From: a virus
Strand: one strand, 5' to 3'
DNA length: 52,583 bases
Virus record (IMG/VR): IMGVR_UViG_3300045110_000292
Coordinates: 1 to 52,583 of that record
The notes beneath the pieces are model-generated. The model was not told where the DNA came from. It made no database searches and saw only the letters and a program-made list of their open reading frames with translations. The number at the start of each line of letters is the position of its first letter. Position 1 is the stretch's first letter. Below are positions 1 to 48,209 of this stretch, piece by piece. The position numbers were made by a program, and so were the translations under genes.

Positions 1-26
1 CATTCTGATTCTCGACATTCTGATTC
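1..26. repeat. Left copy of 26-bp terminal direct repeat (contig overlap)
   Basis: These 26 bases are identical to bases 52558-52583. The copy is internally repetitive: an 11-mer (cattctgattc) occurs twice, separated by tcga, so the period is 15 bp. On the minus strand it encodes N-Q-N-V-E-N-Q-N inside the methyltransferase. The simplest reading is that both ends are one locus of a circular or circularly permuted genome. Confidence 0.95.
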
Positions 27-622
27 AGACGAGCCTCCGACGAAACACTCATCGGCTCTGCAATCGCATCAGCATCGTAAAAATACTTCCGCGATTTACT
101 GAACAAGAACAGGTATTCGTGACTGCGTGTCGGCCGGTCAGTCACGCTCTCAGGCATACAATTCGGCTTGGCCCAAATGATGTCGGATCTCAGATACCAA
201 CCCACCTCACGCAAAGCAAACGCGACCATCCACGGAATACCGATCAGGTCTTTCTCTTTCAGATTCGTGCCCAACCGTGGCGGCCGTGCCTCGCGCTTCC
301 CGTTCGGCAATGACCCTTCGCCCACGACATTGCGACGTGAGCACGGCCATGCACTTGCGTACCTGTCACCGAGATTAAGCCAGAGAGTGCCGTCTTTCTT
401 GAGAACACGCCATATTTCATTGAAAACTCGAACGAGGTTGGCAACGTATTGTTCTGGTGATTTCTCCTGACCGAGTTGATCGGGATGTTTGTAGTCACGA
501 AGCCCCCAGTATGCGGGACTAGTCACGCAGCATTGAACCGACTCCTTCGGAATGAACGGCAGTGCCGACAAAGCAGATGCGCAGTAAACGGTTCGGAGGG
601 ACGATTGAATGACGGGGACCAC
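1..622 (-). CDS. DNA methyltransferase (N4-cytosine/N6-adenine, beta class), N-terminal part; continues at 52557
   Basis: Read leftward from a GTG at 622 through base 1 and on into 52557-52127, this gives about 350 aa. This part carries the catalytic motif IV as TSPAYWGLRDY (bases about 501-533), followed by typical downstream blocks LWLNLGDRYA, DLIGIPWMVAFAL and DIIWAKPNCMPESV. Motif IV comes before the SAM-binding motif, which is the beta-class order. The usual SPPY is SPAY here, a visible deviation. The GTG lies 2 nt after the stop of the preceding small gene, so translation is probably coupled, but the start is uncertain. No restriction partner is seen, so it is probably an orphan protective or regulatory methylase. 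It adds a methyl group to a base in a specific DNA site. Confidence 0.85.
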   Translation of the reverse strand, partial: MVPVIQSSLRTVYCASALSALPFIPKESVQCCVTSPAYWGLRDYKHPDQLGQEKSPEQYVANLVRVFNEIWRVLKKDGTLWLNLGDRYASAWPCSRRNVVGEGSLPNGKREARPPRLGTNLKEKDLIGIPWMVAFALREVGWYLRSDIIWAKPNCMPESVTDRPTRSHEYLFLFSKSRKYFYDADAIAEPMSVSSEARLNQNVENQN

Positions 623-1250: not shown

Positions 1251-1589
1251 ATGAAACGCAGATGGAATGAGGAATCCGAAATCATCGCCGCCATCGACCA
1301 CAATCACGAAGCGGGTATCGCCAAGCTGAAAGAGGCGGAGGAATGCGAACAGGAGATCGAGGAGAACAAGCGGTTCATCGCTGCCAACGAGGATGCAAAG
1401 GACAAGGTGACACGCATGAAGGTGGACATCGCTTACTCGAAGATCGAACCCTTGCGTCGTCAGGTGTTAAAGGCTAGAAAACGGGCGACGACACTCCTCG
1501 AAGTGAAGGCGAAGAAACTGCAAAATCAACTGGCGATATTTCGAACCCGCACGATGGAATTCTGTCCCGACCAAAGTATCCCGGCATGA
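1251..1589 (+). CDS. Coiled-coil protein of unknown function (112 aa)
   Basis: First gene of the plus-strand operon, directly behind the predicted promoter. The sequence is highly charged and almost wholly helical, with long heptad-like stretches (KLKEAEECEQEIEENKRF). There are no membrane segments or enzyme motifs. The next gene overlaps its stop by ATGA. As an early leading gene it could be a regulator or a host-takeover factor, but nothing in the sequence proves this. Confidence 0.65.
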   Translation: MKRRWNEESEIIAAIDHNHEAGIAKLKEAEECEQEIEENKRFIAANEDAKDKVTRMKVDIAYSKIEPLRRQVLKARKRATTLLEVKAKKLQNQLAIFRTRTMEFCPDQSIPA

Positions 1590-1801
1590 AAACCCTGGTG
1601 ATTGGTAACGTCACCGGGTACGTCACAGCCTCTCGAGTCGAATTCTCCACTCGCGCCGGATCGGTGATGAGCATGACCCGCAACGAAGCCATCATGGTAG
1701 CGAAGTGGGTATTGGAGAACGTCGAACCGGAGAAGAAGGAACCGCCCCGCCAAGAGATCACGTTGGAGGAAGCTGCAAAGACCGATTCGCTCCGAAGATG
1801 A
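1586..1801 (+). CDS. Small protein of unknown function (71 aa)
   Basis: Both ends are coupled by ATGA overlaps, to the coiled-coil gene upstream and the HNH gene downstream. The N-terminal half reads like a small beta-sheet (TLVIGNVTGYVTASRVEF) and the C-terminal half is helical and acidic. I do not recognise the family. Confidence 0.6.
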   Translation: MKTLVIGNVTGYVTASRVEFSTRAGSVMSMTRNEAIMVAKWVLENVEPEKKEPPRQEITLEEAAKTDSLRR

Positions 1802-2307
1802 GCACGAAGGCAGGAAAGCCACACAGAAAGGGTCCGGTCACAAAAGACTGGATTCTGGGAGTTGTGAATATCGACAGTCAGTCCGGGTGCTGGAATTGGA
1901 AACTCGCAGTCAATAGGCAGGGATACGGGACAATCACCGAGAACAAAACAAAGCAACTCGCAACGCGGGTTGTGTATCGAGTCTGGTTTGGTGAATTTGA
2001 TCGAACGCTTTTGGTCTGCCACAAATGCGATAACGAACAGTGCGTCAATCCCGATCATCTGTTTCTCGGAACGCACCAAGACAACATGTCGGACATGGTT
2101 TCGAAGGGCAGGGCATCGCGCGACAACGGTCATCCGGGGGAAACCAACGGAAATGCAAAGCTGACACTCACCCAGGTAGATGACATCCGAGTTCTGAAAG
2201 TTCTTGGCGTATCCCTGAGAAGATTAGCAAAGGAGCTTGGTGTTGCAAAAAGGACCATCCAGAGAATTGTGAGAAACAACACTTGGACAAAATATGCCGA
2301 GACTTAA
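1798..2307 (+). CDS. HNH homing-type endonuclease with C-terminal DNA-binding helix-turn-helix
   Basis: The ATG at 1798 overlaps the previous stop (ATGA). An upstream in-frame extension exists but is only a shadow of the preceding gene. The HNH core is CHKCDNEQCVNPDHLFLGT, with paired cysteines and the N-P-x-H-L-F pattern of phage HNH enzymes. The C-terminus (about residues 120-165) resembles a resolvase-like helix-turn-helix, VSLRRLAKELGVAKRTIQRI. Such genes are usually selfish elements that cut unoccupied target sites. It overlaps the next gene by 14 bases, so it is fully embedded in the operon. It is related in design to the HNH at 33717-34187. Confidence 0.85.
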   Translation: MSTKAGKPHRKGPVTKDWILGVVNIDSQSGCWNWKLAVNRQGYGTITENKTKQLATRVVYRVWFGEFDRTLLVCHKCDNEQCVNPDHLFLGTHQDNMSDMVSKGRASRDNGHPGETNGNAKLTLTQVDDIRVLKVLGVSLRRLAKELGVAKRTIQRIVRNNTWTKYAET

Positions 2308-3043
2308 ATCACGACAGAAATACATCCCGAACGGGTTCGTCTTTTACCAGCCTCAAACGAAGTGGAGCGCGCCGTCCAACGCTTCATTCGATGTCATCGT
2401 GTCGGCCGTGATCTCCCATCGCCAGGGGCAGCCTCACATCGTTTCACAATTCGGACTGTCCACCGATTACGCGACCGTTGCTGAGGAAGTCGATGCGTTC
2501 AACGCCACGATCTGTCAGAGGATGGGGTGGACTGACTTTTACGTGGAAGGGGGTTCTAGTGCTGTGGCCCTCCCTTTTCAGCAAGCAGCACTCCCGCCAA
2601 TGCCGCCGATCGACCAAAACAAGCTGGCTGTTGCGGCAGCAAAGGTTAAGAAGATTTGGATTGGCATAAAGACGCTCAAAGAATGGGCGGAGTCCGGCGC
2701 GCCTGCCGTGCCCGCCGAACTGTCGGCCAAACGCGCGGCTGTCTGCGCGACATGCCCGAAGAACGGTCAGGGGGATTTCACGAGTTGGTTTACCCGACCG
2801 GCATCCGAGGGGATAATGAAAATGATCGACCTCGTGAAGTCTCGCAACCTCACGACCCCCGACGATGACAAGCTGAATATCTGTGAGACATGCCTGTGTC
2901 CGATGAAGGCGAAGGTCCATCCAACAATCGAGATCATCAATAGCTGGATGGGAGACGTTGACCGAGCAGAACTGTCTGCCGTCCAAAATCCGAGCGGTGG
3001 CTGCTGGATCGTCAAAGAGATTTGGCCGGAGCGTTACCCTTGA
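2294..3043 (+). CDS. Cysteine-rich protein, zinc-ribbon-like C-terminal half (249 aa)
   Basis: The N-terminal part contains FVFYQPQTKW and a hydrophilic linker. The C-terminal part has two cysteine pairs, CATCPKNGQGDF and ICETCLCPMKAKV, which look like a structural metal site, and ends with a conserved-looking GGCWI. I have the impression of a recurrent phage family with this 'CATCPKN...C..C.CPMK' layout, but no function is known to me. It overlaps the next gene by TTGA and opens the glycan cluster, so a role in sugar modification is possible by context only. Confidence 0.7.
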   Translation: MPRLKSRQKYIPNGFVFYQPQTKWSAPSNASFDVIVSAVISHRQGQPHIVSQFGLSTDYATVAEEVDAFNATICQRMGWTDFYVEGGSSAVALPFQQAALPPMPPIDQNKLAVAAAKVKKIWIGIKTLKEWAESGAPAVPAELSAKRAAVCATCPKNGQGDFTSWFTRPASEGIMKMIDLVKSRNLTTPDDDKLNICETCLCPMKAKVHPTIEIINSWMGDVDRAELSAVQNPSGGCWIVKEIWPERYP

Positions 3044-3729
3044 GAGTTGCTGTCGTTTACGTTTACCCGTTGGGCGGCGCCGGAAAGTTCTACGAACGAG
3101 CCATCCGTTTCCTTCAAACTTATCACGACAACCCACCACAGTACGATCACGACTCGGTGATAGTCTGCAACGGAAGTCCGGCGACTGAGGAGATCCAATT
3201 CCTTTTTTCGTCACTTCCGAATTGCCGATTCCTTGAACGTGACAACAGCGGGTGGGACATCGGCGCCTTTCAACTCGCCGCACAACAAGCCCCGGCCGAC
3301 ATGATGGTTTATTTTGGGAGCGAAACGTACTTCCGGCGAGCCGGTTGGCTGGCTCGCATGGTCGAAGTGTTTTCCAAATATGGTTCCGATCATCTCTACG
3401 GCTGTACCGGCAACCAGGGCGATGCGCGGTTCAATGTCTGGCCGCATGTTCGGACGACGGCATTCTTTTGCACCCCGCATTTGATTAACGCTCATCCGAT
3501 GCGCGTCACCGGGACTGGCGAGCACCAGCGATACGCTTACGAACACGGCCCTGACGGTCTGACGTCCTGGGTGTTGAATCAGAATCGTCGGGCGTGGATC
3601 ATCTCATGGGACTCGGTTTGGCCGCTCCATCAGTGCGATCAGATGCCGGGAGGATTTCACCACGGCAATCAAGAGGGGCTAATCGTTGGCGATCGTCTTA
3701 CCTGCCCGCCCTACTATCACTGCGAATGA
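3040..3729 (+). CDS. Glycosyltransferase-like protein (229 aa)
   Basis: The probable start is the TTG at 3040, overlapping the previous stop as TTGA. The body reads as a nucleotide-sugar transferase fold: a beta-strand start RVAVVYVYPLGGAGKFYERA, a glycine- and asparagine-rich turn CNGSP, and DNSGWDIGAFQLA, which recalls rhamnan-synthesis-F-like transferases. No membrane segment is visible, so it should act in the cytoplasm. The next gene, another transferase-like protein, starts at an ATGA overlap. The exact donor and acceptor cannot be deduced. Confidence 0.65.
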   Translation: MRVAVVYVYPLGGAGKFYERAIRFLQTYHDNPPQYDHDSVIVCNGSPATEEIQFLFSSLPNCRFLERDNSGWDIGAFQLAAQQAPADMMVYFGSETYFRRAGWLARMVEVFSKYGSDHLYGCTGNQGDARFNVWPHVRTTAFFCTPHLINAHPMRVTGTGEHQRYAYEHGPDGLTSWVLNQNRRAWIISWDSVWPLHQCDQMPGGFHHGNQEGLIVGDRLTCPPYYHCE

Positions 3730-4406
3730 CGCCGATCATTCTGTTTTACCATACCTTGTTCTTCATGGGTGAGAGTCAGAACGTGCTCAACCTGGAAATT
3801 ATCATGGAACAGATGGATGTGCTCAGACGCAGCGGACTCGAAGATGCGGCGACTGAAATCCACATCGGAGTCAACGGCGGAGAGGAAAGCCGGTTCTTTG
3901 CCGAGTCGTTGTTGCCGTCGAAGGCGCGCGTTGTTTACCACGGACTGCAGTGCCGGTCGGAGAACCGAACTTTGGTGATGATGGAGGATTGGTGCAGGTC
4001 CAACACCAATCAGGCTCATCTATTGTATTTCCACAGCAAGGGCATCACTCACGCTCCCGGCAGCGACTACGGTGAACGGATCTCCCGGCCGTGGAGAAAT
4101 CGCATGATGGAGACGTGCGTTCACCATTGGCGACAATGCGTCAAGGATTTGGAAGGCTACGATGCTGCTGGCGCTCACTGGTTGACCGGGCAGGGATGGG
4201 ATCGGTCACAGCATTATTTTGCCGGGACATTCTTTTGGGTGCGAGCTTCGTTCTTTAGAACGATTCCAAGTCTGACGACCCGGCAGCGGATCAAAGATTC
4301 AGGACTCGACTCCCTCGAAAGTCGATACGAAGCCGAAGTGCATTTAGGAAATGGACCAAGACTCCCGATTGTAAAAAACTACTATGCAGGTTCGATTGGA
4401 ACATAG
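3726..4406 (+). CDS. Glycosyltransferase-like protein with YFHSKG motif (226 aa)
   Basis: The ATG at 3726 overlaps the previous stop. The motif LLYFHSKGITH, followed by PWRNRMMETC and HYFAGTFFWVRASFF, is characteristic of a group of phage and polysaccharide-locus glycosyltransferases related to rhamnan synthesis proteins. The protein is soluble. Together with the preceding gene it may form a pair acting on one glycan. The following NUMOD4-HNH gene begins inside its last codons. Confidence 0.7.
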   Translation: MTPIILFYHTLFFMGESQNVLNLEIIMEQMDVLRRSGLEDAATEIHIGVNGGEESRFFAESLLPSKARVVYHGLQCRSENRTLVMMEDWCRSNTNQAHLLYFHSKGITHAPGSDYGERISRPWRNRMMETCVHHWRQCVKDLEGYDAAGAHWLTGQGWDRSQHYFAGTFFWVRASFFRTIPSLTTRQRIKDSGLDSLESRYEAEVHLGNGPRLPIVKNYYAGSIGT

Positions 4407-4932
4407 CGAATTGGAGACATGGCTCCCGGTTTCGGGCTTTGAAGGTAGATACGAAGTGAGTTCACACGGGAGAATCATGGCACTGTTCCCAAGCAACGGA
4501 GGAGAGTTGAAGCCGGGGAGAATTCTATCACAGATCCAAACCCCAAACGGATACCTCAAAGTCGGACTTTACAAACACGGAGGGAATAAATCTGTTCAGA
4601 AAAGCGTGCACTCGATTGTGCTCGAGTCGTTCAAAGGTCCAAGAACCGGAAAGCAGGTGTGCAGACACTTGGACGGTATAAGGACTCACAACACCCCCAA
4701 AAACCTTGAGTGGGGAACGGGCAAGCAAAACGCTCAGGATTCGAAGGGGCACGGCACCTTTGTTATTGGCGAGAAGAACGGGTTCTCGGTCTTGACCAAG
4801 GACGATGTTGTTAAAATAAGAAACATGAGGGAAGAAGGAGAAACTCTAAAATCCATAGGTTTAAAATTCAACACCCATCTGAGTAACGTGTCATTGATAT
4901 GTAGGGGAAAAGCGTGGAATCATGTGACATGA
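4384..4932 (+). CDS. NUMOD4-type HNH homing endonuclease
   Basis: The N-terminus ETWLPVSGFEGRYEVSSHG is a clear NUMOD4 motif. The middle has the HNH core HLDGIRTHNTPKNLEWGT, and the C-terminus has a helix-turn-helix-like block ending in WNHV. It overlaps the upstream transferase by 23 bases and the downstream radical SAM gene by ATGA, so it has inserted without breaking translation coupling. A TTG about 27 bases downstream of the ATG is an alternative start. It belongs to a different family from the HNH genes at 1798 and 8725. Confidence 0.88.
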   Translation: MQVRLEHSELETWLPVSGFEGRYEVSSHGRIMALFPSNGGELKPGRILSQIQTPNGYLKVGLYKHGGNKSVQKSVHSIVLESFKGPRTGKQVCRHLDGIRTHNTPKNLEWGTGKQNAQDSKGHGTFVIGEKNGFSVLTKDDVVKIRNMREEGETLKSIGLKFNTHLSNVSLICRGKAWNHVT

Positions 4933-6011
4933 GTCCCGAACTCCAATCAGCGTACGACGAAGCAGCCAAACCGTTCTGGCAAAGCGGTGGAGCAATCTCG
5001 ATCGAGGAGAGCCAGATGAAGTCATGGCGGTATTTCCTCGAGATCAATTCCGCCTGCACCCTCAAATGCCCGACCTGCACGAAGGGCAATCAGGGTGAGG
5101 TCAACGGACTCAAATACGATCACAAGACAGGCATCATGGACCGTGAGTTGATGGAGCGCATCATCGACAAAATCGCGTCGGAGAACCCGAAGTGCATTGT
5201 CTTTCTCTATGGCAATTCCGAGCCGTTCGTTCACCCGAAACTACCTGAGTGCATTGCGGCCGTGAAGTCCCGCGGGTTGCGTTGTGAGTTCTCGACGAAC
5301 CTCAATCACGTCCATCGACTCGATGAAACGCTCGAAGCCGGTCCCGACATGATAATCATTTCACTCTCAGGCTTCACCCAGGACATTTACGTCCGAGGTC
5401 ATGCAGGCGGCAATATCGAGAAGGTGAAGGCGAACATGAGGTTGATTGCCGAAGCGAACGCGAAGATCGGCCAACGCATTCGGATTGAAGTGAATTACCA
5501 CCGCTACAACGACAACGAACACGAGTTGCCGTTGATGGGGGAGTATTGCCGCAACCTCGGACTCGGATTCTTTACGTCTTACGCTCGCGCGATCTCGATG
5601 GAGAACGCGATTCAGTATTGCCGTGAGCATGATCCGGCCAGCACGGAGTTCGAACGCCAGAAGGGAAAACCTGATTGGAATGTCCTGCTGCCTCCGACTT
5701 CCGAGCAGTGGAAATACACGATGAACAGGTTGAAGATCCCACCAACCGAAGCGCGCGAAATGTATGAGCACCACCCGGTTGCCGAGCATTGCCCGGTTGG
5801 GGCCGGGGGAATGTTCACATTCATCAGGCACGACGGAAAGACCTCGATGTGCGCGTGCGTGGCTGACAGGCGGATAACCGTTGGTGATTATCTCGACACC
5901 ACGCCGGATCAGATGATCGAACAGCGAACAGGTCACGCGATTTGCAAGCAGTGCATGAAGTATCGAACGAACTTTTACTTTCACTTGGTTGATCGGGAGA
6001 AGTGGGAATGA
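4929..6011 (+). CDS. Radical SAM enzyme (360 aa) with SPASM-like C-terminal cysteines
   Basis: The ATG at 4929 is chosen because it overlaps the previous stop. The iron-sulfur cysteines are CTLKCPTC at residues 43-50 (C-x3-C-x2-C). Family-typical elements follow: FLYGNSEPFVHPKL and STNLN. The last third holds HCPVGAGG, CACVADRR and CKQCMKY, an auxiliary-cluster (SPASM-like) arrangement. Radical SAM proteins use SAM and a 4Fe-4S cluster for difficult rearrangements or methylations. In this neighbourhood the substrate could be a sugar or a peptide-linked glycan. The precise reaction is unknown. Confidence 0.85.
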   Translation: MSPELQSAYDEAAKPFWQSGGAISIEESQMKSWRYFLEINSACTLKCPTCTKGNQGEVNGLKYDHKTGIMDRELMERIIDKIASENPKCIVFLYGNSEPFVHPKLPECIAAVKSRGLRCEFSTNLNHVHRLDETLEAGPDMIIISLSGFTQDIYVRGHAGGNIEKVKANMRLIAEANAKIGQRIRIEVNYHRYNDNEHELPLMGEYCRNLGLGFFTSYARAISMENAIQYCREHDPASTEFERQKGKPDWNVLLPPTSEQWKYTMNRLKIPPTEAREMYEHHPVAEHCPVGAGGMFTFIRHDGKTSMCACVADRRITVGDYLDTTPDQMIEQRTGHAICKQCMKYRTNFYFHLVDREKWE

Positions 6012-6139
6012 CTTGGGCTGACAATGATTTGAGATGCAAGATCGGTTACTGCGTGTGGATTCTTTATTTCCGCCTGTGGGACAAAACTCCGTACAGCAGA
6101 AAAGAATGGAAGGCTGAGTTGAGGAGATTAAAACAATGA
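6008..6139 (+). CDS. Small protein (43 aa), possibly membrane-associated
   Basis: This short reading frame runs from an ATG overlapping the stop of the radical SAM gene (ATGA) to a TGA overlapping the ATG of the methyltransferase. The centre is hydrophobic and aromatic (CVWILYFRLW) and the end is basic. The double coupling makes it a likely real gene. Its function is unknown. Confidence 0.55.
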   Translation: MTWADNDLRCKIGYCVWILYFRLWDKTPYSRKEWKAELRRLKQ

Positions 6140-6744
6140 AAACTCTCGACGAAATCGGCATCGAACAACAGACCGACAAGGCAAGCCAGTTCAGCCGTAC
6201 GTATGCCAAGCCTCACAACTACCTGACGCACCTTGCAAAGTTCTTCGACCCGATACGCGAGAAGTCGATTCGCTTCGTCGAGATCGGGGTTGGAGGCGGC
6301 GAGAGCATTCGGACTTGGATTGAGTTCTTCCCGAACGCCGAGGTCATCGGTGTCGATAATGTTCAGGCAACAAATCCGTGGAACACTGTGGGAAGTGGCG
6401 TCCACGAACGCTACCGATTCGTCTATGGCGATCAGTCTGACAAAACATTTTGGGCCTGCTTCGTTGCGGATTACGGATCGGAGTTCGACGTGTTAATCGA
6501 CGATGGAGGTCACCACTCGCATCAGGTGATGACTACATTGAATTGCATGTGGTGCCATGTTGCAAGCGGTGGGCTGTACATCATGGAAGATTTAGCGTGC
6601 TCGTATTCACCGATTTTTATGACGGCAGGATGGCCGACGCCGATGGATAGGCTTCGCGATGAGATCGACTCAATGAACAGGGGCCAAGACGAGATCGACT
6701 CGATGTATTTTGCCAGGGAAATTTGCATCATCAGGAAAAGGTGA
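6136..6744 (+). CDS. SAM-dependent methyltransferase, sugar O-methyltransferase type (202 aa)
   Basis: A class I methyltransferase with motif I FVEIGVGGGESIRTW, a following acidic strand VIGVDN, and FDVLIDDGGHHSHQV, the hallmark of the TylF/CmcI and macrocin/rhamnosyl O-methyltransferase group. It is likely to methylate a hydroxyl on a sugar made or transferred by its neighbours. Near the C-terminus the phrase DEIDSM is present twice, 10 residues apart, from a small in-frame duplication. The next gene overlaps as GTGA. Confidence 0.8.
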   Translation: MKTLDEIGIEQQTDKASQFSRTYAKPHNYLTHLAKFFDPIREKSIRFVEIGVGGGESIRTWIEFFPNAEVIGVDNVQATNPWNTVGSGVHERYRFVYGDQSDKTFWACFVADYGSEFDVLIDDGGHHSHQVMTTLNCMWCHVASGGLYIMEDLACSYSPIFMTAGWPTPMDRLRDEIDSMNRGQDEIDSMYFAREICIIRKR

Positions 6745-7016
6745 GTTCTCCTCGAAATCCAAATCGAGTTGTGAGGCTCGGTGATAAACCAGTTCACGAA
6801 CGAACCGACCCGGATTATTACGAAAAGAAGTTAGCGAAAATGGCTATTGATTATCGCGATTGTCCCGATGAGTGGAAAGGCGTGTTCATTGCTGGAATTG
6901 ACACTAAAGACCTGAAAGAACTCCAAGATCGAGGATTTCTTCCAAAAGGTGATGCGAGAATCCCCGCATCACAAAAACCTAATTCGAAATTCTGGCATAC
7001 GTCTGACTTTCGATGA
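6741..7016 (+). CDS. Small hydrophilic protein of unknown function (91 aa)
   Basis: The probable start is the GTG at 6741, which overlaps the methyltransferase stop (GTGA). The protein is polar, with DPDYYEKKLAKMAIDYRDCPDEWKG as its longest helical region (two blocks), and no cysteine pairs or membrane segments. The following fusion transferase begins at an ATGA overlap. No family is recognised. Confidence 0.6.
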   Translation: MSSPRNPNRVVRLGDKPVHERTDPDYYEKKLAKMAIDYRDCPDEWKGVFIAGIDTKDLKELQDRGFLPKGDARIPASQKPNSKFWHTSDFR

Positions 7017-8653
7017 ACGGCTTCCAGCGTGTACAACTTCAAGATGGGGGAGGCAACGAACTTCCGAAGGACCGTGTGTCAGTCCGACGTATTGCCGCCA
7101 TTGGTGATTGCGTAGCCGCGTCAGTCGTGGCCGACAAGCTGTTCGAACAGCAGATCCCGGTCGATTGGCAGTGCCATGGGATGATCGTTCCAGTGATGAA
7201 GCGCATCGGGTCGATCAGCAGTGTCAACACTCCGAACTTCCATGCCGATGTCGTGCTCGATGGAGTTTACGAAAAGGACTCAGAGCGAAAGACGCGGCAT
7301 TTCCACGATTATTTTATTCGATCGGCCAACGCTCAACTCAAGAGCCGCGGCATCGACATCGGGCGACCGATCAACTGCCGACCAGCCTTAAACGTCACCG
7401 ACGGAGAGAAACAATTGTTTCTATCGAAGATCGTCCAATATCCGAAACCTTGGGTGATGATCTGCCCACGCAGCCAGTGGTTTAGATGCCGAGACGTTCC
7501 AGATTACGTGTGGGAACGGGAGGCACCAAAGATCAACGGCACCTGCTTTTGGATGGGCATGAACCAGGAACCCAAAGGGATCGTCGGACTTCGTTGCAGC
7601 AACATTGAGGAGGTCTTGATGTATTGTGCTGTCGCTGACTTGGTGATCTCGCCTGACACTGGACCGGCGCATTTGGCGATCGCTGTCGGCACCCAGGCAT
7701 TGCTCGTCGGCCAATCGTCGGACCCAATATTACACTTCTCCGACCTGTGCGATTTCGAAGTCATCTATGCGAACGTGCCTTGTAGGAATTGCCAGGAAAA
7801 CAGGTGCCCGATAAATCAGTTCACGCCTCCGTGTTGTGAGATCGAGCCTGACAGGATTGCCCTGGCGGCGAACAGGAAGCTGAGGCGAAACATCGTGTCG
7901 TGCGTTGTGCCGACCTTCGCGGCAACAACGGAAAGACTCTCAAGGTGCATTGCGGCAGTGCTCCCCCAAGTGGATGAAATCGTGGTCGGTGCAGATGCCG
8001 GAGGGATATTTCCGAAAGGAGCGCCGATCCACACCAAAATAAAATACGTCCAGAGCTGTAAAACCAACCAAGGTTTCGGGAAAAATATTAACCACGCTTT
8101 GAGACACACGTCAGGAGATCTAATATTGCTTCTCAACGATGACGTATTTTTAGACCCAGGAGCAGTGCGGGCCATGTGTAAAGTGATGGACGAGAATCCA
8201 AGGGTGGGAATGGTGTCCCATTTATTGCGCTACGAAAGTGGGAAAATTTATTTTGCTGGTCGGCAGAGGCACAACGGGGAACGGGGGTTCCCGCACATCG
8301 ACCACAATCAATTCCTCCCAACATTCAACCAAGTTGTTGAGCAGGAGGCGGCAAGCGCAACGTCACTTCTGGTTAGTCGAGAGGCGTTCTACAAAGCTCG
8401 ATGTTTCACTGAGGAGATTCACATGTATGCCGAAGATGATTTTTTGTCGATGTCTGTTCGCAAGGCCGGATACAGAATCCTGTACACGCCCCATGCAGCG
8501 GGCGTTCACATCGGGAACGCGACAACGGGGCCAACTGGAAAAATGCACGAGTGGATTGCTCAGTCAGGCAAGATAATGGAACGGTACTGGGGTCCGTATT
8601 TTGACCACAATCGGAACCGACTTCCTCTTGGCAACTTCGACTATTTAAGGTAA
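7013..8653 (+). CDS. Bifunctional glycosyltransferase: GT9-like N-terminal and GT2-like C-terminal domains
   Basis: A 546-aa fusion. Residues about 20-290 resemble GT9 heptosyltransferases: the nucleotide-sugar motif [15 protein letters not shown] lies near residue 220, followed by a cysteine cluster [11 protein letters not shown]. Residues about 295-530 are a GT2 (GT-A) transferase: it opens with [15 protein letters not shown], has the metal-binding NDDV motif in [11 protein letters not shown], then [17 protein letters not shown], the usual acceptor-side ED motif. No membrane helices are seen. It should transfer two sugars, or one domain may only bind. A hairpin follows the stop. Confidence 0.88.
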
Positions 8654-8660
8654 AACAATC

Positions 8661-8695
8661 GAACCGAGCGAACGACTGTAATCGTTGCCCGGTTC
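8661..8695 (+). terminator. Hairpin after the GT9-GT2 gene (terminator-like, no U tract)
   Basis: GAACCG (8661-8666) pairs with CGGTTC (8690-8695), and AACGA (8671-8675) pairs with TCGTT (8682-8686). It lies in the 71-base gap before the next gene. There is no run of T after it, so it could be a weak terminator, a processing site, or part of the inserted endonuclease cassette. Confidence 0.4.
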
Positions 8696-8724
8696 TGAAC
8701 ACAACGAAAGTATCAGTTTCGAAT

Positions 8725-9294
8725 ATGCCTGCCGGTAAGATTTCACTGGACGGAAGGACCGTTCAAGATTTAACCAACGTAAAATTTGGAAGATTGCTGG
8801 CAGTCAAGCCTGTCGGGTTCAGGCACCGAGGACACATCGCCAAGAGGACCGTGATGTTCTGGGACTGCATTTGTGACTGTGGCAAACGGGTTGAGAAAAG
8901 CGCCGAATGCCTACGTGCCATAGAAACCCAGTCGTGCGGTTGCCTTCTGAGGGAGATGAGGTCCGCTCAAAACACAAAACACGGTCACGCCAGAAGGGGA
9001 AAAACGCATCACCTATACGGAAGGTGGAGGGGCATGATTCAGAGATGCTATGACCCCAATCACAAACAGTTCAACAATTGGGGAGGCCGGGGAATAATTG
9101 TGTGCGAACGGTGGAGAACATCGTTTGCTAATTACCTCGAAGATATGGGTCCATCGTGGGTTAATGGATTGAGCATCGACCGGATTGACAATGACGGTCC
9201 ATACAGTCCGGAAAATTGCCGATGGGCTACCGCATCACAACAAGGACAGAACAAACGTAAATACCGGAAAGAGTTCTTCGCCCATTTCCTTTGA
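8725..9294 (+). CDS. HNH/AP2-like homing endonuclease (189 aa)
   Basis: The N-terminal third has a cysteine-rich block [15 protein letters not shown] and SCGCL, typical of a metal-binding AP2-like DNA-recognition domain. The C-terminal half has the diagnostic endonuclease blocks [31 protein letters not shown] and ASQQGQNKR. This family is common as free-standing mobile genes in phages. It is set off from its neighbours by short gaps (71 and 45 bases) instead of overlaps, consistent with a separate insertion. Confidence 0.88.
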
Positions 9295-9348
9295 GCAAAC
9301 GATTATTTGCGTTGACATCCCTGTGGTATAGGTGAGACAGTGGCGGTG

Positions 9349-10173
9349 ATGACAATTGTCCTTCTTGGCGCATCAGGTTACGTCGGCTCCGCACTCGCAA
9401 AAGAGATTGATGCCAGGTGTATCCCCGCCTTCGAAATCGCCCGCGGTGTTGTGGATTACACCATCGAAGAAAACTTTCGATCGTTGATGCGGGACAAACC
9501 AACGCACGTCATCAATGCCGCGGCCTGGATTCCTCAACCGTCGGTCGATGCCTGCCGAAACGATCCGGCGAAAACATGGCGGTCCAACGTTCACTTCCCG
9601 GCGATGCTGGCGAAGGTCTGCAACGAACTAGGCATCATGCTCTGCCACATCAGCACCGGCTGCCTTTACGACGAGGAGCGGTATTACACCGAGGACGACG
9701 CTCCGACACGATGGCAGCACGACTATGCGGGGCTGTACGTCAACACCAAGTATTACGGTGAAGTGCTAGTACAGAGGATTTGCCCAAACTCCTTTGTCTG
9801 GCGGGTGCGCCTGCCATTCGATGAAGTCGATCACCCTCGCAATTTCCTGACGAAGATTCAGCAGCACGCCCAAGTCTGGGATCATCGAAATAGCCTGACT
9901 CATCGCGGCGATTTTGCGCGCGCGGCGATTGATATGATCGAGCGTGGGGTTATGCCAGGGGTGTACAACATGACCAATCCTGTGGGCATCCACACCAATT
10001 CAATAATGGCCCAAATGGAACAGTCATGGGGCTGCATAATAAAAAGGCAATTAGTCCCCGGACCCGTCCCAGGAACACTGCTGTCTGGGGAGAAACTTAA
10101 ATCGGCAGGCATCTTCATGCGCTCTGGTCCGGAAGCTGTGACTGATGCGCTCAACAGGTGGAGGAAAGAGTGA
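9349..10173 (+). CDS. NAD(P)-dependent sugar reductase, RmlD/dTDP-4-dehydrorhamnose reductase-like
   Basis: A Rossmann-fold short-chain enzyme of 274 aa from the ATG at 9349 (GTGs at 9340 and 9346 are alternatives). The cofactor motif GASGYVGSALA is at the N-terminus, THVINAAAW follows as in RmlD, and the catalytic residues sit in HISTGCLYD and YVNTK (Y-x3-K). RmlD-like enzymes reduce a 4-keto sugar nucleotide. No RmlA, B or C homologue is present, so the substrate would come from the host. The next gene starts at a GTGA overlap. Confidence 0.82.
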   Translation: MTIVLLGASGYVGSALAKEIDARCIPAFEIARGVVDYTIEENFRSLMRDKPTHVINAAAWIPQPSVDACRNDPAKTWRSNVHFPAMLAKVCNELGIMLCHISTGCLYDEERYYTEDDAPTRWQHDYAGLYVNTKYYGEVLVQRICPNSFVWRVRLPFDEVDHPRNFLTKIQQHAQVWDHRNSLTHRGDFARAAIDMIERGVMPGVYNMTNPVGIHTNSIMAQMEQSWGCIIKRQLVPGPVPGTLLSGEKLKSAGIFMRSGPEAVTDALNRWRKE

Positions 10174-10628
10174 TAAAAATAAAGAAGTCGGAAACGGCGG
10201 ATACTCGCACTTGCGACTTTGCAAACGTCACAAAGGCACAGTTACTCAGTTCAAGTTGTCAACACATTGGTGATGTCGGGCTGGCGATGCAGTTCTTCCG
10301 CCGCTACATGACGAACGCTGAATTGTCCCACGACTGGGATAAGATCAAAAACATCGACCAGTTCCACGACGATTTTGTGACCGGGTTCAAACAAACCGAG
10401 TGGTGGAATGCCCACCGCAAGATGCACCGACATCACCTTAATTATACAGATGGTATTCCGTCAGACGTGAATCTCCTCGACGTGCTGGAATACATTTGCG
10501 ATTGCGTCATGGCTGGCATGGCTCGAAGCGGAGAGGTTTACGAAATAAAGATTGATCCCGAGACATTGCAGCACGCCTTCAACCAAACTGTTGCTCTGCT
10601 TAAATCCCAAGTGGAAGTGGAGAAATGA
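10170..10628 (+). CDS. DUF5662-like phage protein (152 aa)
   Basis: The GTG at 10170 overlaps the previous stop. Histidine-rich blocks such as DWDKIKNIDQFHDDF and HRKMHRHHLNY, followed by LEYICDCVMAGMARSG, look like the DUF5662 phage family, whose conserved histidines and aspartates suggest a metal-dependent fold. Its function is unknown. It lies inside the sugar operon and overlaps the C-methyltransferase gene by ATGA. Confidence 0.65.
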   Translation: MIKIKKSETADTRTCDFANVTKAQLLSSSCQHIGDVGLAMQFFRRYMTNAELSHDWDKIKNIDQFHDDFVTGFKQTEWWNAHRKMHRHHLNYTDGIPSDVNLLDVLEYICDCVMAGMARSGEVYEIKIDPETLQHAFNQTVALLKSQVEVEK

Positions 10629-11845
10629 GCTTCACCCTCGTAACCAAATGCCGAGCGTGCGGTGCTGGCGATCTGAAACCAGTATTCAATCTCGGAGTTC
10701 AACCTCTGGCAAACGATTGGCGACAGCCTTCGGAATCGAGACAAGGCCACTATCCGCTGTCAGTCCTGCTCTGCACGAAATGCACGTTGTCTCAATTGTC
10801 GGCTGTCGTGGACCCCGATATTCTCTATAGGAATTATTCCTACGTGACGAGCAGTAGTATTACGATGCAGCGACATTTCCACAGACTGTTCATCGACCTT
10901 GAATCCGAGGCTCCGCCGACAGCCATTCTGGAAATCGGCAGCAACGACGGCAAGTGTTTGGCATACGCAAAGAGCCGAGGCTGGATCAATGTGTTTGGGA
11001 TCGAGCCAGCGAAGAATCTCGGTCAAATCGCGTTCGACGAATACTCGGTCCCATCATTGCCTGAGTTCTTTGAGAAGGAGTCGGCACACGTTGCGCTCAA
11101 CAGGATGGGAAATCCGTCCGTCATCCTGGCCCGACACTGTTTCGCCCATGTCAATGACTGGCGTGAATTCATGGCTGGACTCGAAATCCTGGCAGGCAAG
11201 GACACGGTGATTGCGCTCGAAGTGCCATACGTTCACGACACACTCGCCAAAACCGAGTTCGACCAGATTTACCACGAGCATCTGTCGTTCATCTCAATCA
11301 GTTCGATCTACGCACTGCTTCTGCCAACGCCATTCAAACTCCAACGAATCATCCGTTACGGCATTCATGGCGGCAGCCTGCTCATCATGCTCAGACACAA
11401 AAGTTCAGGAGCGGCAGAACATCTGAGCGTCGATGAGTTCATGGGAGAGGACTTGGTGACGAAGAAACACTGGTCGAAGTTTGAAGTCCAGGCGTTCCAA
11501 AAGATCAATCGAATGCGCGACATCGTTCGAGGCTTGATTGCCGATGGCAAGAGAGTCTGTGGGTTCGGCGCCAGTGCCAAGGCAACAGTTTGGATCAACG
11601 CCTGTGGGTTCACAGAAAAAGACCTGCTGTTCGTCTCCGACAACTCGCCGTTGAAGCCAGGATGCTACATTCCTGGGACGTTCATCCCAGTCATCGCTCA
11701 AGACGAGTTTTTGAGTGAGCACCCGGATTACGCGATCATGTTTGCCTGGAATTTCAAAACTGAAATCTTGGAGTCACAAAAGAAGTGGCGGCAACGTGGA
11801 GGCAAATTCCTGATCCCGACCGTCGATGGGGTGGAGGTTGTGTGA
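10625..11845 (+). CDS. Sugar C-methyltransferase (TylC3/NovU family)
   Basis: A 406-aa protein of the three-part architecture known for nucleotide-sugar C-3 methyltransferases. There is an N-terminal zinc site (C9, C12, C50, C53) with the family phrase NLGVQPLAND. The SAM domain starts near residue 100 with AILEIGSNDG and carries the catalytic segment YHEHLSFIS. The C-terminal Rossmann-like domain contains GFGASAKATVWIN. These enzymes add a methyl branch to a keto-deoxy sugar nucleotide. Its presence next to an RmlD-like reductase strongly suggests synthesis of a branched, methylated sugar. Confidence 0.9.
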   Translation: MSFTLVTKCRACGAGDLKPVFNLGVQPLANDWRQPSESRQGHYPLSVLLCTKCTLSQLSAVVDPDILYRNYSYVTSSSITMQRHFHRLFIDLESEAPPTAILEIGSNDGKCLAYAKSRGWINVFGIEPAKNLGQIAFDEYSVPSLPEFFEKESAHVALNRMGNPSVILARHCFAHVNDWREFMAGLEILAGKDTVIALEVPYVHDTLAKTEFDQIYHEHLSFISISSIYALLLPTPFKLQRIIRYGIHGGSLLIMLRHKSSGAAEHLSVDEFMGEDLVTKKHWSKFEVQAFQKINRMRDIVRGLIADGKRVCGFGASAKATVWINACGFTEKDLLFVSDNSPLKPGCYIPGTFIPVIAQDEFLSEHPDYAIMFAWNFKTEILESQKKWRQRGGKFLIPTVDGVEVV

Positions 11846-11867
11846 CAACCGTTGAAGGAAAGGGAGA

Positions 11868-12134
11868 ATGAAATTCTTTAGCTATCATCCATGCGACTGT
11901 CCGGCTTTGAGGCTCCATGAAACAGCGGAGTCTGCAAAAGCGAGAGCCGAGAAAGATTTAGACCAAGAACGCTTCGAGGCCCAAGAAGGATGGTCGCAGG
12001 AAGTAATGGACAACCCTATCTGCTGGGGAAAAATCAGCGAGATAATGACCCAAACCGAGCGCCGTAAGCCGCGTGCGGACGAAAAGGCCAACGGAATTGA
12101 CGAAGTTCTAAACTATCAACTTAAATCTCCATGA
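11868..12134 (+). CDS. Small phage protein (88 aa)
   Basis: Preceded by a good purine-rich ribosome site (aaggaaaggg). Acidic and helical, with EGWSQEVMDNPICWGKI in the middle, a pattern I have seen in short early phage proteins of unknown role. Its stop overlaps the next gene as ATGA. Confidence 0.65.
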   Translation: MKFFSYHPCDCPALRLHETAESAKARAEKDLDQERFEAQEGWSQEVMDNPICWGKISEIMTQTERRKPRADEKANGIDEVLNYQLKSP

Positions 12135-12304
12135 CCCCCTCCACAACAGAAGCCCTCAAAATCGTTGCTGAGAATGAGTGGCAGACCAAACGCGCTGCTC
12201 CAGTCGAACTCACACCCGCCGACGCCAAAACCCTATTCGCCGCCATCAAGCAGTTGAGTGGGGATGGTGAGCGGTTGAACGGCAAAGATGGGGAGATGAA
12301 TTGA
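12131..12304 (+). CDS. Small protein (57 aa)
   Basis: A short frame coupled on both sides: the ATG overlaps the previous TGA, and the stop shares one base with the ATG of the PP-loop gene. Composition is ordinary and soluble (LTPADAKTLFAAIKQL is helical). Function is unknown. Confidence 0.55.
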   Translation: MTPSTTEALKIVAENEWQTKRAAPVELTPADAKTLFAAIKQLSGDGERLNGKDGEMN

Positions 12305-12840
12305 TGGAACAAAGGCGCTTACTTTGGTTCTCCTGTGGGGCAGCGAGTGCGGTTGCGCTTAAGATGGCCGTAAATGCTTATGGTTTGGACGCGGTTACGC
12401 CAGTGTACTGCGATTGTTCCGCTAATGAGGATAAGGATAATATCCGATTCCGAGCCGATGTTGAGCAGTGGACTGGAAAGCAAATCACAGTCATAAGAAA
12501 TGAGAAATTCCGCACGGTGGAGGAGGTCAATGAGGCCCGCCAATACATGCTTGGCTTTAAGAATAACAACTGCAAAGCCTGCAACAAGGCCACAAGCCTC
12601 GCCTACTGGGTTCTCACCCGCAGGATCGACCCGGAGGAATTCAGGGTCAGAGCGGAACAGTCTCGAAGATTTGGGGCGAGAATGACGCGGTGGAACGGTA
12701 AGCGCATCTTCTTAGACGAAATTCCACCCGACGACCAGATTCCGAAACGATTCCTCAAACAAACCGAGAACGTGTCATGCGGGCCGGAATGCGGCCTGAC
12801 CGACGCCGCAATCCGAAAGGACGAGAGGGGTTATGAGTGA
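12304..12840 (+). CDS. PP-loop / PAPS-reductase-like adenine nucleotide alpha-hydrolase (178 aa)
   Basis: The N-terminus LLWFSCGAASAVALKMA is a variant of the PP-loop SGGxDS signature that binds ATP pyrophosphate, with Cys and Ala at positions usually Gly and Asp. It continues with VYCDCSANEDKDN and FRADVEQWTGKQI as in phage PAPS-reductase-family proteins. A cysteine group NNCKACNKATS follows, and a CGPECG near the end could hold a metal. Such enzymes activate or reduce sulfur substrates or act in nucleotide modification. The actual substrate is unknown. Confidence 0.8.
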   Translation: MEQRRLLWFSCGAASAVALKMAVNAYGLDAVTPVYCDCSANEDKDNIRFRADVEQWTGKQITVIRNEKFRTVEEVNEARQYMLGFKNNNCKACNKATSLAYWVLTRRIDPEEFRVRAEQSRRFGARMTRWNGKRIFLDEIPPDDQIPKRFLKQTENVSCGPECGLTDAAIRKDERGYE

Positions 12841-13165
12841 CCATGAAGAAATAGAGCTATCTAATCAAATCGACGCTCTGCATTCCCAACTATCGACAGC
12901 GCTGGAACGGGTGAAGGAGTTGGAGTCCTATAAATCGAAGTGGATTTCAGACGCCGTTTGGAACAAGGGATTGGCTGACGGAGCAAACAAACGAATCACC
13001 GCCCTCGAAACGGAGAATGCGGAGTTGGCCGAAGCTTTGAGGATGCTTCACGACTATCAAAATGGCTGTCCATTGCCGACCTACGAAAAAGGTTGGACCG
13101 AAGCCATGCGACTCACTGAGAACGCATTGGCCAAAATCGCTGAGGCGAAGAAATCACAACCATGA
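12833..13165 (+). CDS. Coiled-coil protein (110 aa)
   Basis: Overlaps the PP-loop gene by 8 bases. Residues 5-75 form long heptads (ALHSQLSTALERVKELESY and ALETENAELAEALRML). There are no other motifs. It ends in an ATGA overlap with a tiny basic frame. Probably an early accessory protein. Confidence 0.6.
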   Translation: MSDHEEIELSNQIDALHSQLSTALERVKELESYKSKWISDAVWNKGLADGANKRITALETENAELAEALRMLHDYQNGCPLPTYEKGWTEAMRLTENALAKIAEAKKSQP

Positions 13166-13278
13166 GACATACATCGCTTTCAAAATGGATTGGCATCAGA
13201 GGTCGAAGATCAACTCCTGAGACGCGAAGGCGCTACAAAGCCTGGTTGAAGGCTAACCGTATAAAAATTCGTAAATGA
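13162..13278 (+). CDS. Tiny basic protein (38 aa)
   Basis: Starts at an ATGA overlap and ends 1 base before the next ATG. Strongly basic (GRRSTPETRRRYKAW and a KIRK tail), consistent with nucleic-acid binding, but too short for family assignment. Confidence 0.4.
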   Translation: MRHTSLSKWIGIRGRRSTPETRRRYKAWLKANRIKIRK

Positions 13279-13279
13279 A

Positions 13280-13780
13280 ATGAAAAACCAAATCAAACTC
13301 ACTGTCTGCTGCCTTGCAGCACTGGTGCTGACCATGTTCTCAGCACGCGCACAGCAGCCACCAGTTCCAGCCTGTATCACCAACGTTTACATCGCGTGTT
13401 GGGGTGACCTGTTTCCGCCGTACGCCTACTGGGGAAGCATCACTCAAACATCGTGGGGAGGTTGCACCAATGTCAGCACGTTCGCCGGTATGCCGATGAT
13501 CTCGGATTGCACACCGACAAACTGTTACGGCATACCGCTCACGATCAATCCCTGCCCGGACTTTACCTGTCAAGCGACCGATCAGGTTATCGGCGTTCTC
13601 TGGTGGCAATGTTCTCATACGTGCGATCCGTCAGATTCATGGCACAGTGCGAATATCATCCTGCCTGCTCACAGCAGTTGGATGGATTTTTACGTCTGCG
13701 ATTCGACGACGGCCGATTGCAGCCTCTACATCAGTTGTGTGACTAAAAGCGTTCCATGCGACAGGGTATGGGATTGGTAA
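13280..13780 (+). CDS. Secreted cysteine-rich protein (166 aa)
   Basis: It has a clear signal peptide: basic start MKNQIK, hydrophobic core LTVCCLAALVLTMF and cleavage-like ARAQ. The mature part has many cysteines, aromatic residues and glycines (for example NCYGIPLTINPCPDF), suggesting a disulfide-rich exported protein. It is unusual in a phage operon and might act in the periplasm or on the cell surface, for example in exclusion of other phages. No homologue is recognised. Confidence 0.7.
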   Translation: MKNQIKLTVCCLAALVLTMFSARAQQPPVPACITNVYIACWGDLFPPYAYWGSITQTSWGGCTNVSTFAGMPMISDCTPTNCYGIPLTINPCPDFTCQATDQVIGVLWWQCSHTCDPSDSWHSANIILPAHSSWMDFYVCDSTTADCSLYISCVTKSVPCDRVWDW

Positions 13781-13782
13781 AT

Positions 13783-13797
13783 AATTTCCCGCTCTCA
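13783..13797 (+). repeat. 15-bp direct repeat, copy 1
   Basis: The sequence aatttcccgctctca lies just after the stop of the secreted protein gene and occurs again at 14180-14194 just after the next gene. Both genes also have ggattgg shortly before their stops. Confidence 0.8.
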
Positions 13798-13799
13798 GA

Positions 13800-14180
13800 G
13801 TGAATCTCATTCCCATCGCCCTGTTCCTCCTGGTCAATCACGGTTTGTCATTAGACATGTCCCCGGTTAGCGTGTGGACTAATGGACCCGCTCTCACAAA
13901 GGCATTGGCTCAGGTTAATACGCCATTGCCGCCACCAATCAAACACCCCAAATTGATCTGGGATTGGATTCCAGATGGCGCTCCGGTTTTCTTCGAGGTA
14001 TGGCACACGAATCGATTGCCATCAACACTGACAATAATCGGAACCAACGTACCGATCGGGTTCACGATGTTCACTAACGTCCTGTCCCCATCGACAGATA
14101 TTGGATTGGATCAGGTGAACGAGTTTTTTATTGTTCGCGCAGGGAACTCGATTGGATATTCGGATTGGAACAGTAAATGA
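13800..14180 (+). CDS. Secreted, fibronectin-like protein (126 aa)
   Basis: The GTG at 13800 precedes a hydrophobic N-terminus (LIPIALFLLVNHGLSL) that may be a signal peptide. The rest is beta-rich with Trp and Thr (LIWDWIPDGAPVFFEVWHT) and ends in FFIVRAGNSIGYSDWN, which resembles the last strand of fibronectin-type repeats in verrucomicrobial secreted proteins. This supports, but does not prove, such a host. It could be a surface or virion decoration protein. Confidence 0.6.
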   Translation: MNLIPIALFLLVNHGLSLDMSPVSVWTNGPALTKALAQVNTPLPPPIKHPKLIWDWIPDGAPVFFEVWHTNRLPSTLTIIGTNVPIGFTMFTNVLSPSTDIGLDQVNEFFIVRAGNSIGYSDWNSK

Positions 14181-14194
14181 ATTTCCCGCTCTCA
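14180..14194 (+). repeat. 15-bp direct repeat, copy 2
   Basis: Exact second copy of 13783-13797, beginning with the last base of the preceding stop codon. Confidence 0.8.
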
Positions 14195-14313
14195 TTCGAG
14201 GCGTGTGCCCTTTCGCTGTCTAATAAGTCCACAGGCGATACGTTCGGGATCGTTTGATTCCGAGGCGGGAAAACCTTTGACCCTCTGACCAAAGAAGCGT
14301 AAGAGTCAGATTG
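14181..14313 (+). promoter_or_regulatory. Structured leader before the portal gene
   Basis: A 133-base gap in which TTTCCCGC (14182-14189) is complementary to GCGGGAAA (14265-14272), enclosing a smaller CGAT/ATCG pair. This could be a folded leader or the end of the early operon. The motif GAGTCAGA lies at 14303-14310 right in front of the start codon. No clear -35/-10 pair was found. Confidence 0.4.
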
Positions 14314-17903: not shown

Positions 17904-17940
17904 TGTTGCATACGTGAGACGGAAGGGATAGGGTGGGTTT

Positions 17941-18168
17941 GTGCGAGTGAAAGACTACCACGACGACCCGGCAAATGATCCATGGCTGACTTCGAGGGGA
18001 ATCGCTCTGTCCTCGAACCGGGTCACGGTGAGTTTCCAAACAGGATTCGCCGGAAAACCGATCACCGAACCCACCCATCGTTTCGCCTACCCCGAAGTCT
18101 GCAACTGCCCCACGTGCATTTCGATTCGAGGGTATCGAGTGGAGTTGCCAAAGAAGAAGGCGGCATGA
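17941..18168 (+). CDS. Small protein with Cys pair (75 aa)
   Basis: Starts at a GTG 37 bases after the ATP-grasp gene. It has CNCPTC near residue 55 and a lysine-rich tail (PKKKAA). Another frame through the same DNA is open but is judged a shadow until 18165. Function is unknown. Confidence 0.5.
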   Translation: MRVKDYHDDPANDPWLTSRGIALSSNRVTVSFQTGFAGKPITEPTHRFAYPEVCNCPTCISIRGYRVELPKKKAA

Positions 18169-18239
18169 TTCCAGAGGGTTCAGCAATCGACGACAGCGAC
18201 GAAGATGGCGGTATGCCGGAGGACCAAGACGATGAATAG
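18165..18239 (+). CDS. Tiny acidic protein (24 aa)
   Basis: ATGA-coupled to the previous stop, and its own end overlaps the ATG at 18232. The peptide is rich in Asp and Glu (DDSDEDGGMPEDQDDE). Position inside a run of coupled small genes supports it, but its length makes it uncertain. Confidence 0.4.
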   Translation: MIPEGSAIDDSDEDGGMPEDQDDE

Positions 18240-18342
18240 CCCGACCTTCAAAGGAGCAGGCAAAGGCTACGGTCAGCACATGGTCAACCAGACCCCGGTT
18301 TACTCCAAGAAGCGCAAAAAGAAAAAGCGTAAGTCGAAGTGA
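18232..18342 (+). CDS. Tiny basic protein (36 aa)
   Basis: ATG at 18232 to TGA overlapping the next GTG (GTGA). The tail is KKRKKKKRKSK. Small lysine-rich proteins near podovirus portals may bind DNA or scaffold, but this is a guess. Confidence 0.5.
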   Translation: MNSPTFKGAGKGYGQHMVNQTPVYSKKRKKKKRKSK

Positions 18343-18527
18343 ACGACCACAACATCAACGCTCCGTTGCCGAACTATCCGCAGTATCAGCCACTTCCTCC
18401 TGGCACTGAACTGGTGATTGAGAAGATGCACAAACCGTTGATGAAACTTTTGAAGCAGAAAATGATGAAGCCTCGCAAACTCAGCATCAAAGCCATGCGC
18501 AGACTTCCGAAGAAGAAAATCGTGTGA
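18339..18527 (+). CDS. Small basic proline/lysine-rich protein (62 aa)
   Basis: GTG start overlaps the previous stop. The N-terminal half is proline-rich (PLPNYPQYQPLPPG) and the C-terminal half is a basic helix (MKLLKQKMMKPRKLS). The next gene is coupled by GTGA. No family is recognised. Confidence 0.55.
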   Translation: MNDHNINAPLPNYPQYQPLPPGTELVIEKMHKPLMKLLKQKMMKPRKLSIKAMRRLPKKKIV

Positions 18528-18769: not shown

Positions 18770-18772
18770 TTT

Positions 18773-19111: not shown

Positions 19112-19120
19112 TCTTCCACT

Positions 19121-47490: not shown

Positions 47491-48209
<719 letters not shown>

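Follow-up and report, generated by a model that had tools for sequence, protein, structure and literature searches.

A modular cassette of modified-sugar and glycosyltransferase genes at a fixed locus in a tailed-phage lineage

Virus-encoded glycosylation is already known. For the virion fibrils of mimivirus, uridine diphosphate (UDP)-L-rhamnose synthesis, a 221-residue MycE-like methyltransferase (R132), a pyruvyltransferase and several glycosyltransferases (GTs) have been described (PMC10117803), and mycobacteriophages use GTs of their own to glycosylate proteins of the capsid and the tail tube (Che8 gp110, Corndog gp38; Freeman et al. 2023, cited in PMC12363180). Phage glycosylation is usually seen as the work of one or two GTs using host sugars. 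Here, we describe a dedicated, exchangeable cassette at positions 2294–11845 of the virus record IMGVR_UViG_3300045110_000292, whose genes point to enzymes that remodel sugar nucleotides, methylate in two different ways and use radical chemistry, in a group of phages of about 50–60 kb without detected cultured relatives. The window analyzed is this entire record, 52,583 bases long. No account of such a cassette was found in the open-access literature; its predicted chemistry and its genetic arrangement would be new for tailed phages.

That the locus encodes a phage-borne pathway for making and transferring a modified sugar, as the original prediction held, is well supported, with conservation of the predicted active-site residues of its epimerase/reductase (NRS), C-methyltransferase (CMT) and O-methyltransferase (OMT). 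Judging from the enzyme families, the product is most likely a methyl-branched, rhamnose-like sugar, namely a 3-C-methylated 6-deoxyhexose. We propose, with confidence evenly balanced, that this modular, probably late cassette makes and attaches a C-methylated 6-deoxyhexose glycan, with virion proteins as the probable acceptor.

All named genes are open at the coordinates given below and run in the same direction on the + strand; neighbors overlap by 4 bp at 3040, 3726, 7013 and 10625. Relatives were gathered with the presumed portal (766 aa, 14311–16611, +), the right-hand anchor of the cassette, assigned from size and gene order and kept in 24 related contigs, and with the radical SAM protein (rSAM), which gave 19 loci, of which three lay in contigs that the portal search had already returned. 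Sampling of this second set is biased, and rSAM counts are not frequencies. The recurrent order is CYS-GTa-(GTa)-GTb-rSAM-OMT-(NRS)-CMT-portal, CYS being a Cys-rich protein. The search for this gene order in other phages, suggested along with the original prediction, found this set with its order unchanged in more than 12 other phage contigs, so the set is not a product of chance. Together with the open frames, the overlaps and the Pfam support (domain calls were judged against family cut-offs), this recurrence establishes the genes at 2294–11845 as real and, for the most part, coupled.

Sugar-modifying enzymes and transferases

The sugar 3-C-methyltransferase (CMT, 10625–11845, +) carries the three Pfam domains of its class over their cut-offs (PF08421, PF13489 and PF08484, up to 124.5 bits) and matches the D-mycarose 3-C-methyltransferase MtmC (4RV9) over its full length at 3.9e-81, in keeping with the predicted branching C-methylation of the TylC3/NovU type; TcaB9 (3NDI) is matched at 8e-55. 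The zinc cysteines C9, C12, C50 and C53 are conserved in the phage relatives, and Y216-H217-E218-H219, which aligns with the MtmC motif, is invariant in three phages. In TcaB9, the YHEH motif has a catalytic role.

The adjacent sugar-nucleotide enzyme (NRS, 9340–10173, +) had been described as an RmlD-like reductase. Membership of the RmlD_sub_bind family holds (87 bits), but the RmlD subtype does not: the nearest solved structures are Arabidopsis 4QQR (8e-25) and the UDP-L-rhamnose synthase 7JID (3e-13), with true RmlDs at 1.5e-8 or weaker. The glycines G10/G13/G16 of the Rossmann GxxGxxG motif and the YxxxK reductase pair Y133/K137 are invariant in six phages. So are C108 and K172, which align with C115 and K183 of 4QQR, the epimerase-site Cys and Lys of this bifunctional class. 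In the RmlD structures 4WPG, 1VL0 and 8G22 a Tyr occupies the position of the NRS Cys, and 4WPG and 8G22, whose alignment is clean there, lack the Lys. The RmlD equivalog TIGR01214 was rejected, at 87.4 bits versus a cut-off of 224.05 and with NRS/ER diagnostic residues present instead. NRS is thus better matched to the bifunctional 3,5-epimerase/4-reductase (NRS/ER) type, as a predicted activity. Among cellular genomes it has only seven matches, at 23–29% identity. NRS occurs only where CMT does (6/6), and about ten cassettes have CMT but no NRS; MtmC is bifunctional (methylation plus 4-ketoreduction), which would explain the latter.

The route had been called nearly complete, which does not hold for this genome. 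The window has no NTP_transferase, and its sole epimerase-family gene is NRS; both the RmlA (nucleotidyltransferase) and RmlB (4,6-dehydratase) functions are missing, and would therefore be supplied by the host. They are found in relatives instead. One relative, L032 (IMGVR_UViG_3300005545_000011), has the cassette order NRS, CMT, RmlB, RmlA and then the presumed portal, with RmlA at 371 bits (cut-off 360.65) and RmlB at 378 bits (cut-off 365.1). In IMGVR_UViG_3300037743_000357 (L001/L024), RmlB over its cut-off lies slightly upstream of CYS on the opposite strand. Because relatives carry RmlA/RmlB in or near the cassette, the likely precursor pool for CMT and NRS is deoxythymidine diphosphate (dTDP)-4-keto-6-deoxyglucose.

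The predicted O-methylation stands, although the MycE/TylE type fits better than the TylF type first named. OMT (6136–6744, +; Methyltransf_24, 35.1 bits) matches the catalytic halves of the metal-dependent sugar O-methyltransferases MycE (3ssm, 2.5e-32) and TylE, and its D123, H126 and D152 correspond to MycE D275, H278 and D304, of which D275 and D304 are metal residues and H278 is the base (PMC10117803). At 202 aa, OMT lacks the N-terminal domain of MycE and consists of the catalytic half only; R132 of mimivirus, with 221 aa, is likewise short (PMC10117803). A small protein (6723–7016, +) that matches no family is coupled to OMT and to the GT9-GT2 gene that follows.

The radical SAM enzyme that had been predicted is present at 4929–6011 (+). 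Its most likely start is ATG 4929, over the stop of the preceding gene, with GTG 4914 possible. PF04055 scores 40.2 bits against a cut-off of 29.5, and the CxxxCxxC motif (C48/C52/C55) is invariant in four phages along with C293, C313, C315, C344 and C347, the extra C-terminal cysteines being SPASM/Twitch-like. In 16 of the 19 loci the identity of the protein is about 60–72%, and all subfamily models score far below their cut-offs. DesII (TIGR04426) was rejected at 35.9 bits against a cut-off of 450; the DesII match is weak (24.5 bits) and tied with an unrelated archaeal lipid enzyme. Scanning 84,980 genomes for two short peptide patterns gave no cellular source, a search that distant homologues could escape.

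At least three transfer domains were expected, and candidates for them are present. In the 546-aa fusion GT (7013–8653, +), both the GT9 (PF01075, 22.8 bits) and the GT2 (PF00535, 47.8 bits) domains are over cut-off; the protein matches heptosyltransferase II and chondroitin synthase, and the full fusion occurs also in relatives L013, L020 and L024. GTb (3726–4406, +) has no Pfam match. Its AlphaFold model, built from an eight-sequence alignment (predicted local distance difference test (pLDDT) 83, predicted template modeling score (pTM) 0.85), aligns with many GT-A glycosyltransferases at Z of about 11–12.9; GTb is thus a predicted GT-A-fold glycosyltransferase, a fold that is not by itself proof of activity. 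GTa (3040–3729, +) is GT2/RgpF-like, with PF00535 sub-threshold at 20.3 bits (cut-off 23.3) and a weak similarity to RgpF of rhamnan synthesis; its family is kept in relatives, where the gene is often duplicated, and a profile search against solved structures gave no match. No transferase of the window has a hydropathy peak above 1.6, and no membrane-anchored transferase was seen among them.

CYS (2294–3043, +) anchors the cassette on the left. It has six invariant cysteines and a structure model of pLDDT 87, for which Foldseek returned no PDB match. The DUF5662-like protein placed at 10170 by the original prediction is present as an open frame (10158–10628, +), but its family score is below the cut-off (PF18907, 23.9 bits versus 27). 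Its homologue in L026 lies outside the CYS-portal interval, and the gene is probably an inserted element with no role in the pathway.

A fixed locus with exchangeable content

The location of the cassette is fixed and its content is swapped among relatives. In 33 of the 33 contigs in which both anchors are resolved, CYS and the presumed portal are linked and accompanied by a variable cassette. In 32 of these, a cassette of about 2–12 kb lies between CYS and the presumed portal; in L023, CYS and the cassette are inverted yet adjacent. The rarity originally claimed for such a locus may hold across phages as a whole; in this group it does not.

The smallest cassette (L005) consists of CYS, GTa and GTb. 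Parts swapped in elsewhere include GTs of the GT2_4 type, a further set of radical SAM proteins, one of which has SPASM, a pyruvyltransferase (in L008 and L024), other methyltransferases, a PLOD-type GT and families without any match. One alternative cassette, at 3327–9766 of L014 and also in L015, L019 and L022, combines methyltransferases and a GT2_4 transferase with radical SAM proteins, again one with SPASM, and with the large families F9, F10 and F13, which match nothing. Another family, F3 (L018 3124–4074 and relatives), has no Pfam match, adjoins CYS in seven cassettes and shows by eye a GT9-like motif (GRYGDIIQLLP ... TTDTATLHLA); it is possibly a divergent GT9 transferase.

The genes of the cassette differ in how closely they follow the presumed portal. 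In the rSAM-carrying phages (up to 14), the Spearman correlation of pairwise identity with that of the presumed portal is 0.72 for CYS, 0.74 for the scaffold, 0.64 for CMT and 0.51 for OMT, and falls to 0.21 for GTb and 0.05 for rSAM; mean identity is 66% for rSAM and 44% for the presumed portal. This pattern fits horizontal exchange of GTb-rSAM and equally an unusually strong constraint on rSAM.

Two homing-endonuclease-like genes that the original prediction had not listed lie inside the region. A NUMOD4-HNH gene (4384–4932, +; PF07463 and PF13392 over cut-off) sits between GTb and rSAM; L041 and L043 have a member of its family at the junction of rSAM and OMT. A second mobile open reading frame (ORF) (8725–9294, +) has no Pfam domain over cut-off and is read as an endonuclease from its motif. 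Directly upstream of CYS is an HNH gene (1705–2307, +; PF13392, 33.2 bits). Homologues of the last two sit elsewhere in other phages, and such differing locations are expected of mobile elements. The HNH genes at 1705 (+) and 33717 (-) are paralogous homing endonucleases in one genome, with 37.5% protein identity, and contain a 93-nt inverted repeat of 72% complementarity (2014–2106 / 33906–33998).

Genome layout and head-gene neighborhood

The window encodes a large-terminase homologue (27170–29005, -), a helicase, a PD-(D/E)XK exonuclease and a RecT protein, and is therefore a tailed-phage genome. A 26-bp direct repeat stands at both ends (1–26 and 52558–52583). A DNA N4/N6-methyltransferase ORF at 2–622 (-) is cut at base 2 and, by coordinate arithmetic, continues in frame across the repeat at 52127–52582 (-). 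The terminal repeat and this ORF running on from the right end suggest a complete genome closing on itself.

Downstream of the cassette follow proteins of 766 aa (14311), 427 aa (19121; scaffold-like, Phage_scaffold below cut-off) and 494 aa (20593–22077). From their size and order, which resemble those of N4, they are presumed to be portal, scaffold and capsid. Searches of Pfam (capsid and portal), PHROGs, PDB profiles and the N4 and epsilon15 proteins gave no match for the portal or capsid, and the short tail originally ascribed to this phage could not be shown. Among 50,697 phage records no isolate relative was detected for the presumed portal, the presumed capsid or CYS. The cassette and the presumed head genes lie on one strand, on which the stretch from 1500 to 20700 gave no terminator-like site, which makes late co-transcription with the head genes plausible.

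Three further features were noted. A protein encoded at 12301–12840 (+) has a PP-loop-like motif (WFSCGAASAVALKMA) and resembles, by eye, phage PAPS-reductase/ATP-pyrophosphatase proteins, with no Pfam match. In the structural region, a protein at 31183–32640 (+) has two putative immunoglobulin (He_PIG) domains and is possibly a host-binding appendage. At 47534–47731, the start of the RecT gene (minus strand) contains a long run of CGGCGT/CGGCGG-type units at 9–15 bp spacing, and the N-terminus is of low complexity.

Function of the cassette and known systems

The genes and their families, the catalytic residues and the swapping at a fixed location are observations; from them, we infer co-expression, an order of reactions, the identity of the sugar, its acceptor and a benefit to the phage, as follows. 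The host would supply dTDP-4-keto-6-deoxyglucose, the product of RmlA and RmlB. CMT would place a methyl group onto C3 of this keto sugar, and NRS would then epimerize C3/C5, reduce C4, or both, yielding a 3-C-methyl-6-deoxyhexose in activated form; this may be an L-sugar, 3-C-methyl-rhamnose for example. The modified sugar, along with host sugars, would be transferred to the acceptor by GTa, GTb and the GT9-GT2 fusion; OMT would cap the glycan by O-methylation, and rSAM may add one further radical modification on sugar or acceptor. The likeliest acceptor would be a phage virion protein, giving a sugar-coated particle, and the homing endonucleases at the joints may aid module swapping.

The host surface, a virion protein and DNA had all been named earlier as targets. 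The GtrA flippase (PF04138) is absent from 31 records, with positive controls, and this absence, with the lack of hydropathy peaks in the window transferases, favors a soluble cytoplasmic acceptor, a virion protein before the core of the host lipopolysaccharide (LPS). Remodeling of the host surface, in which the modified sugar is added to a host glycan such as the LPS core and blocks superinfection or the binding of progeny to debris, is the less probable but still substantial alternative. GT9 is the heptosyltransferase family, GTa is weakly RgpF-like, pyruvyltransferase is a common enzyme of surface polysaccharides, and polymorphic content is expected of surface-targeted genes; the missing flippase, the lack of a membrane-anchored transferase and the position beside the presumed head genes lower its probability. 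Several points weigh against the virion-glycan proposal. GT9 relatives usually act on the LPS core in the cytoplasm, where no flippase is needed; portal, scaffold and capsid are assigned by size and order only; the window encodes neither RmlA nor RmlB; the match of rSAM to DesII is weak; and F3, F9, F10, F13 and F15, in several alternative cassettes, have no match at all.

The remaining explanations range from improbable to very remote. A glycoside outside the coat, such as a natural product that diffuses or is linked to a peptide, where rSAM would modify a peptide (perhaps CYS), would suit the likeness of CMT and OMT to antibiotic-sugar enzymes, the SPASM-like cysteines of rSAM and the constant linkage of CYS; we regard it as improbable, since no scaffold-making enzymes or export genes were recognized and a coat needs fewer assumptions. 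That the region is a relic or passing cargo, its genes not expressed as one pathway, might be read from the mobile endonucleases that interrupt it and from its varying content, but open frames, catalytic residues kept at 30–45% identity and an order conserved in many phages indicate selection and make this very improbable. Least probable by a little is glycosylation of DNA as an anti-restriction measure, as in T-even phages: the phage also encodes a DNA methyltransferase, and there are phage GTs that take modified DNA as their acceptor, but 31 records contain no thymidylate-synthase homologue that could provide a hydroxymethyl base, and we know of no precedent for branched deoxysugar enzymes in DNA glycosylation. 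DNA is accordingly the one earlier target that is disfavored.

If the glycans coat the virion, adsorption, stability and recognition would be affected, and the cassettes offer ready natural variants. Within the cassette, rSAM is a highly conserved enzyme open to expression and assay.

The cassette can be set against known systems part by part. Serotype conversion by gtrABC was rejected for want of GtrA in the 31 records; those loci resemble the cassette in being phage-borne GTs that differ between lineages, and differ from it in genomic position and in their GtrA and membrane-anchored GTs. CMT is a full-length homologue of MtmC (4RV9) and TcaB9 (3NDI), with the zinc cysteines and YHEH, although their antibiotic pathways include 2-deoxygenation steps, of which none is seen here. 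Arabidopsis NRS/ER (4QQR), the best solved-structure match to NRS with Cys, Lys and YxxxK kept, serves a plant UDP-rhamnose route, whereas the phage enzyme would probably use dTDP-sugars, by association with RmlA in L032. The mycobacteriophages are likewise tailed phages encoding their own GTs; as far as they are described in PMC12363180, theirs are GTs only, with no mention of nucleotide-sugar remodeling, C-methylation or a radical SAM cassette. Mimivirus, a virus unrelated to these phages, and the Megavirinae form a close parallel, with an L-rhamnose-type epimerase/reductase, a short MycE-like O-methyltransferase, several GTs, a pyruvyltransferase in some and clade-specific content (PMC10117803). 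Theirs are giant viruses of amoebae using UDP-sugars, whereas the activating enzyme of the phages, where encoded, is of dTDP type, and the phage cassettes also contain a 3-C-methyltransferase and radical SAM enzymes and lie beside presumed head genes. We suggest, tentatively, that a tailed-phage lineage makes its own activated branched-chain deoxysugar, builds from it a radical-modified, doubly methylated particle glycan and swaps the modules at a fixed locus with homing endonucleases, as a counterpart of giant-virus capsid glycans; the likeness of the parts list to the giant-virus fibril clusters may reflect convergent evolution.

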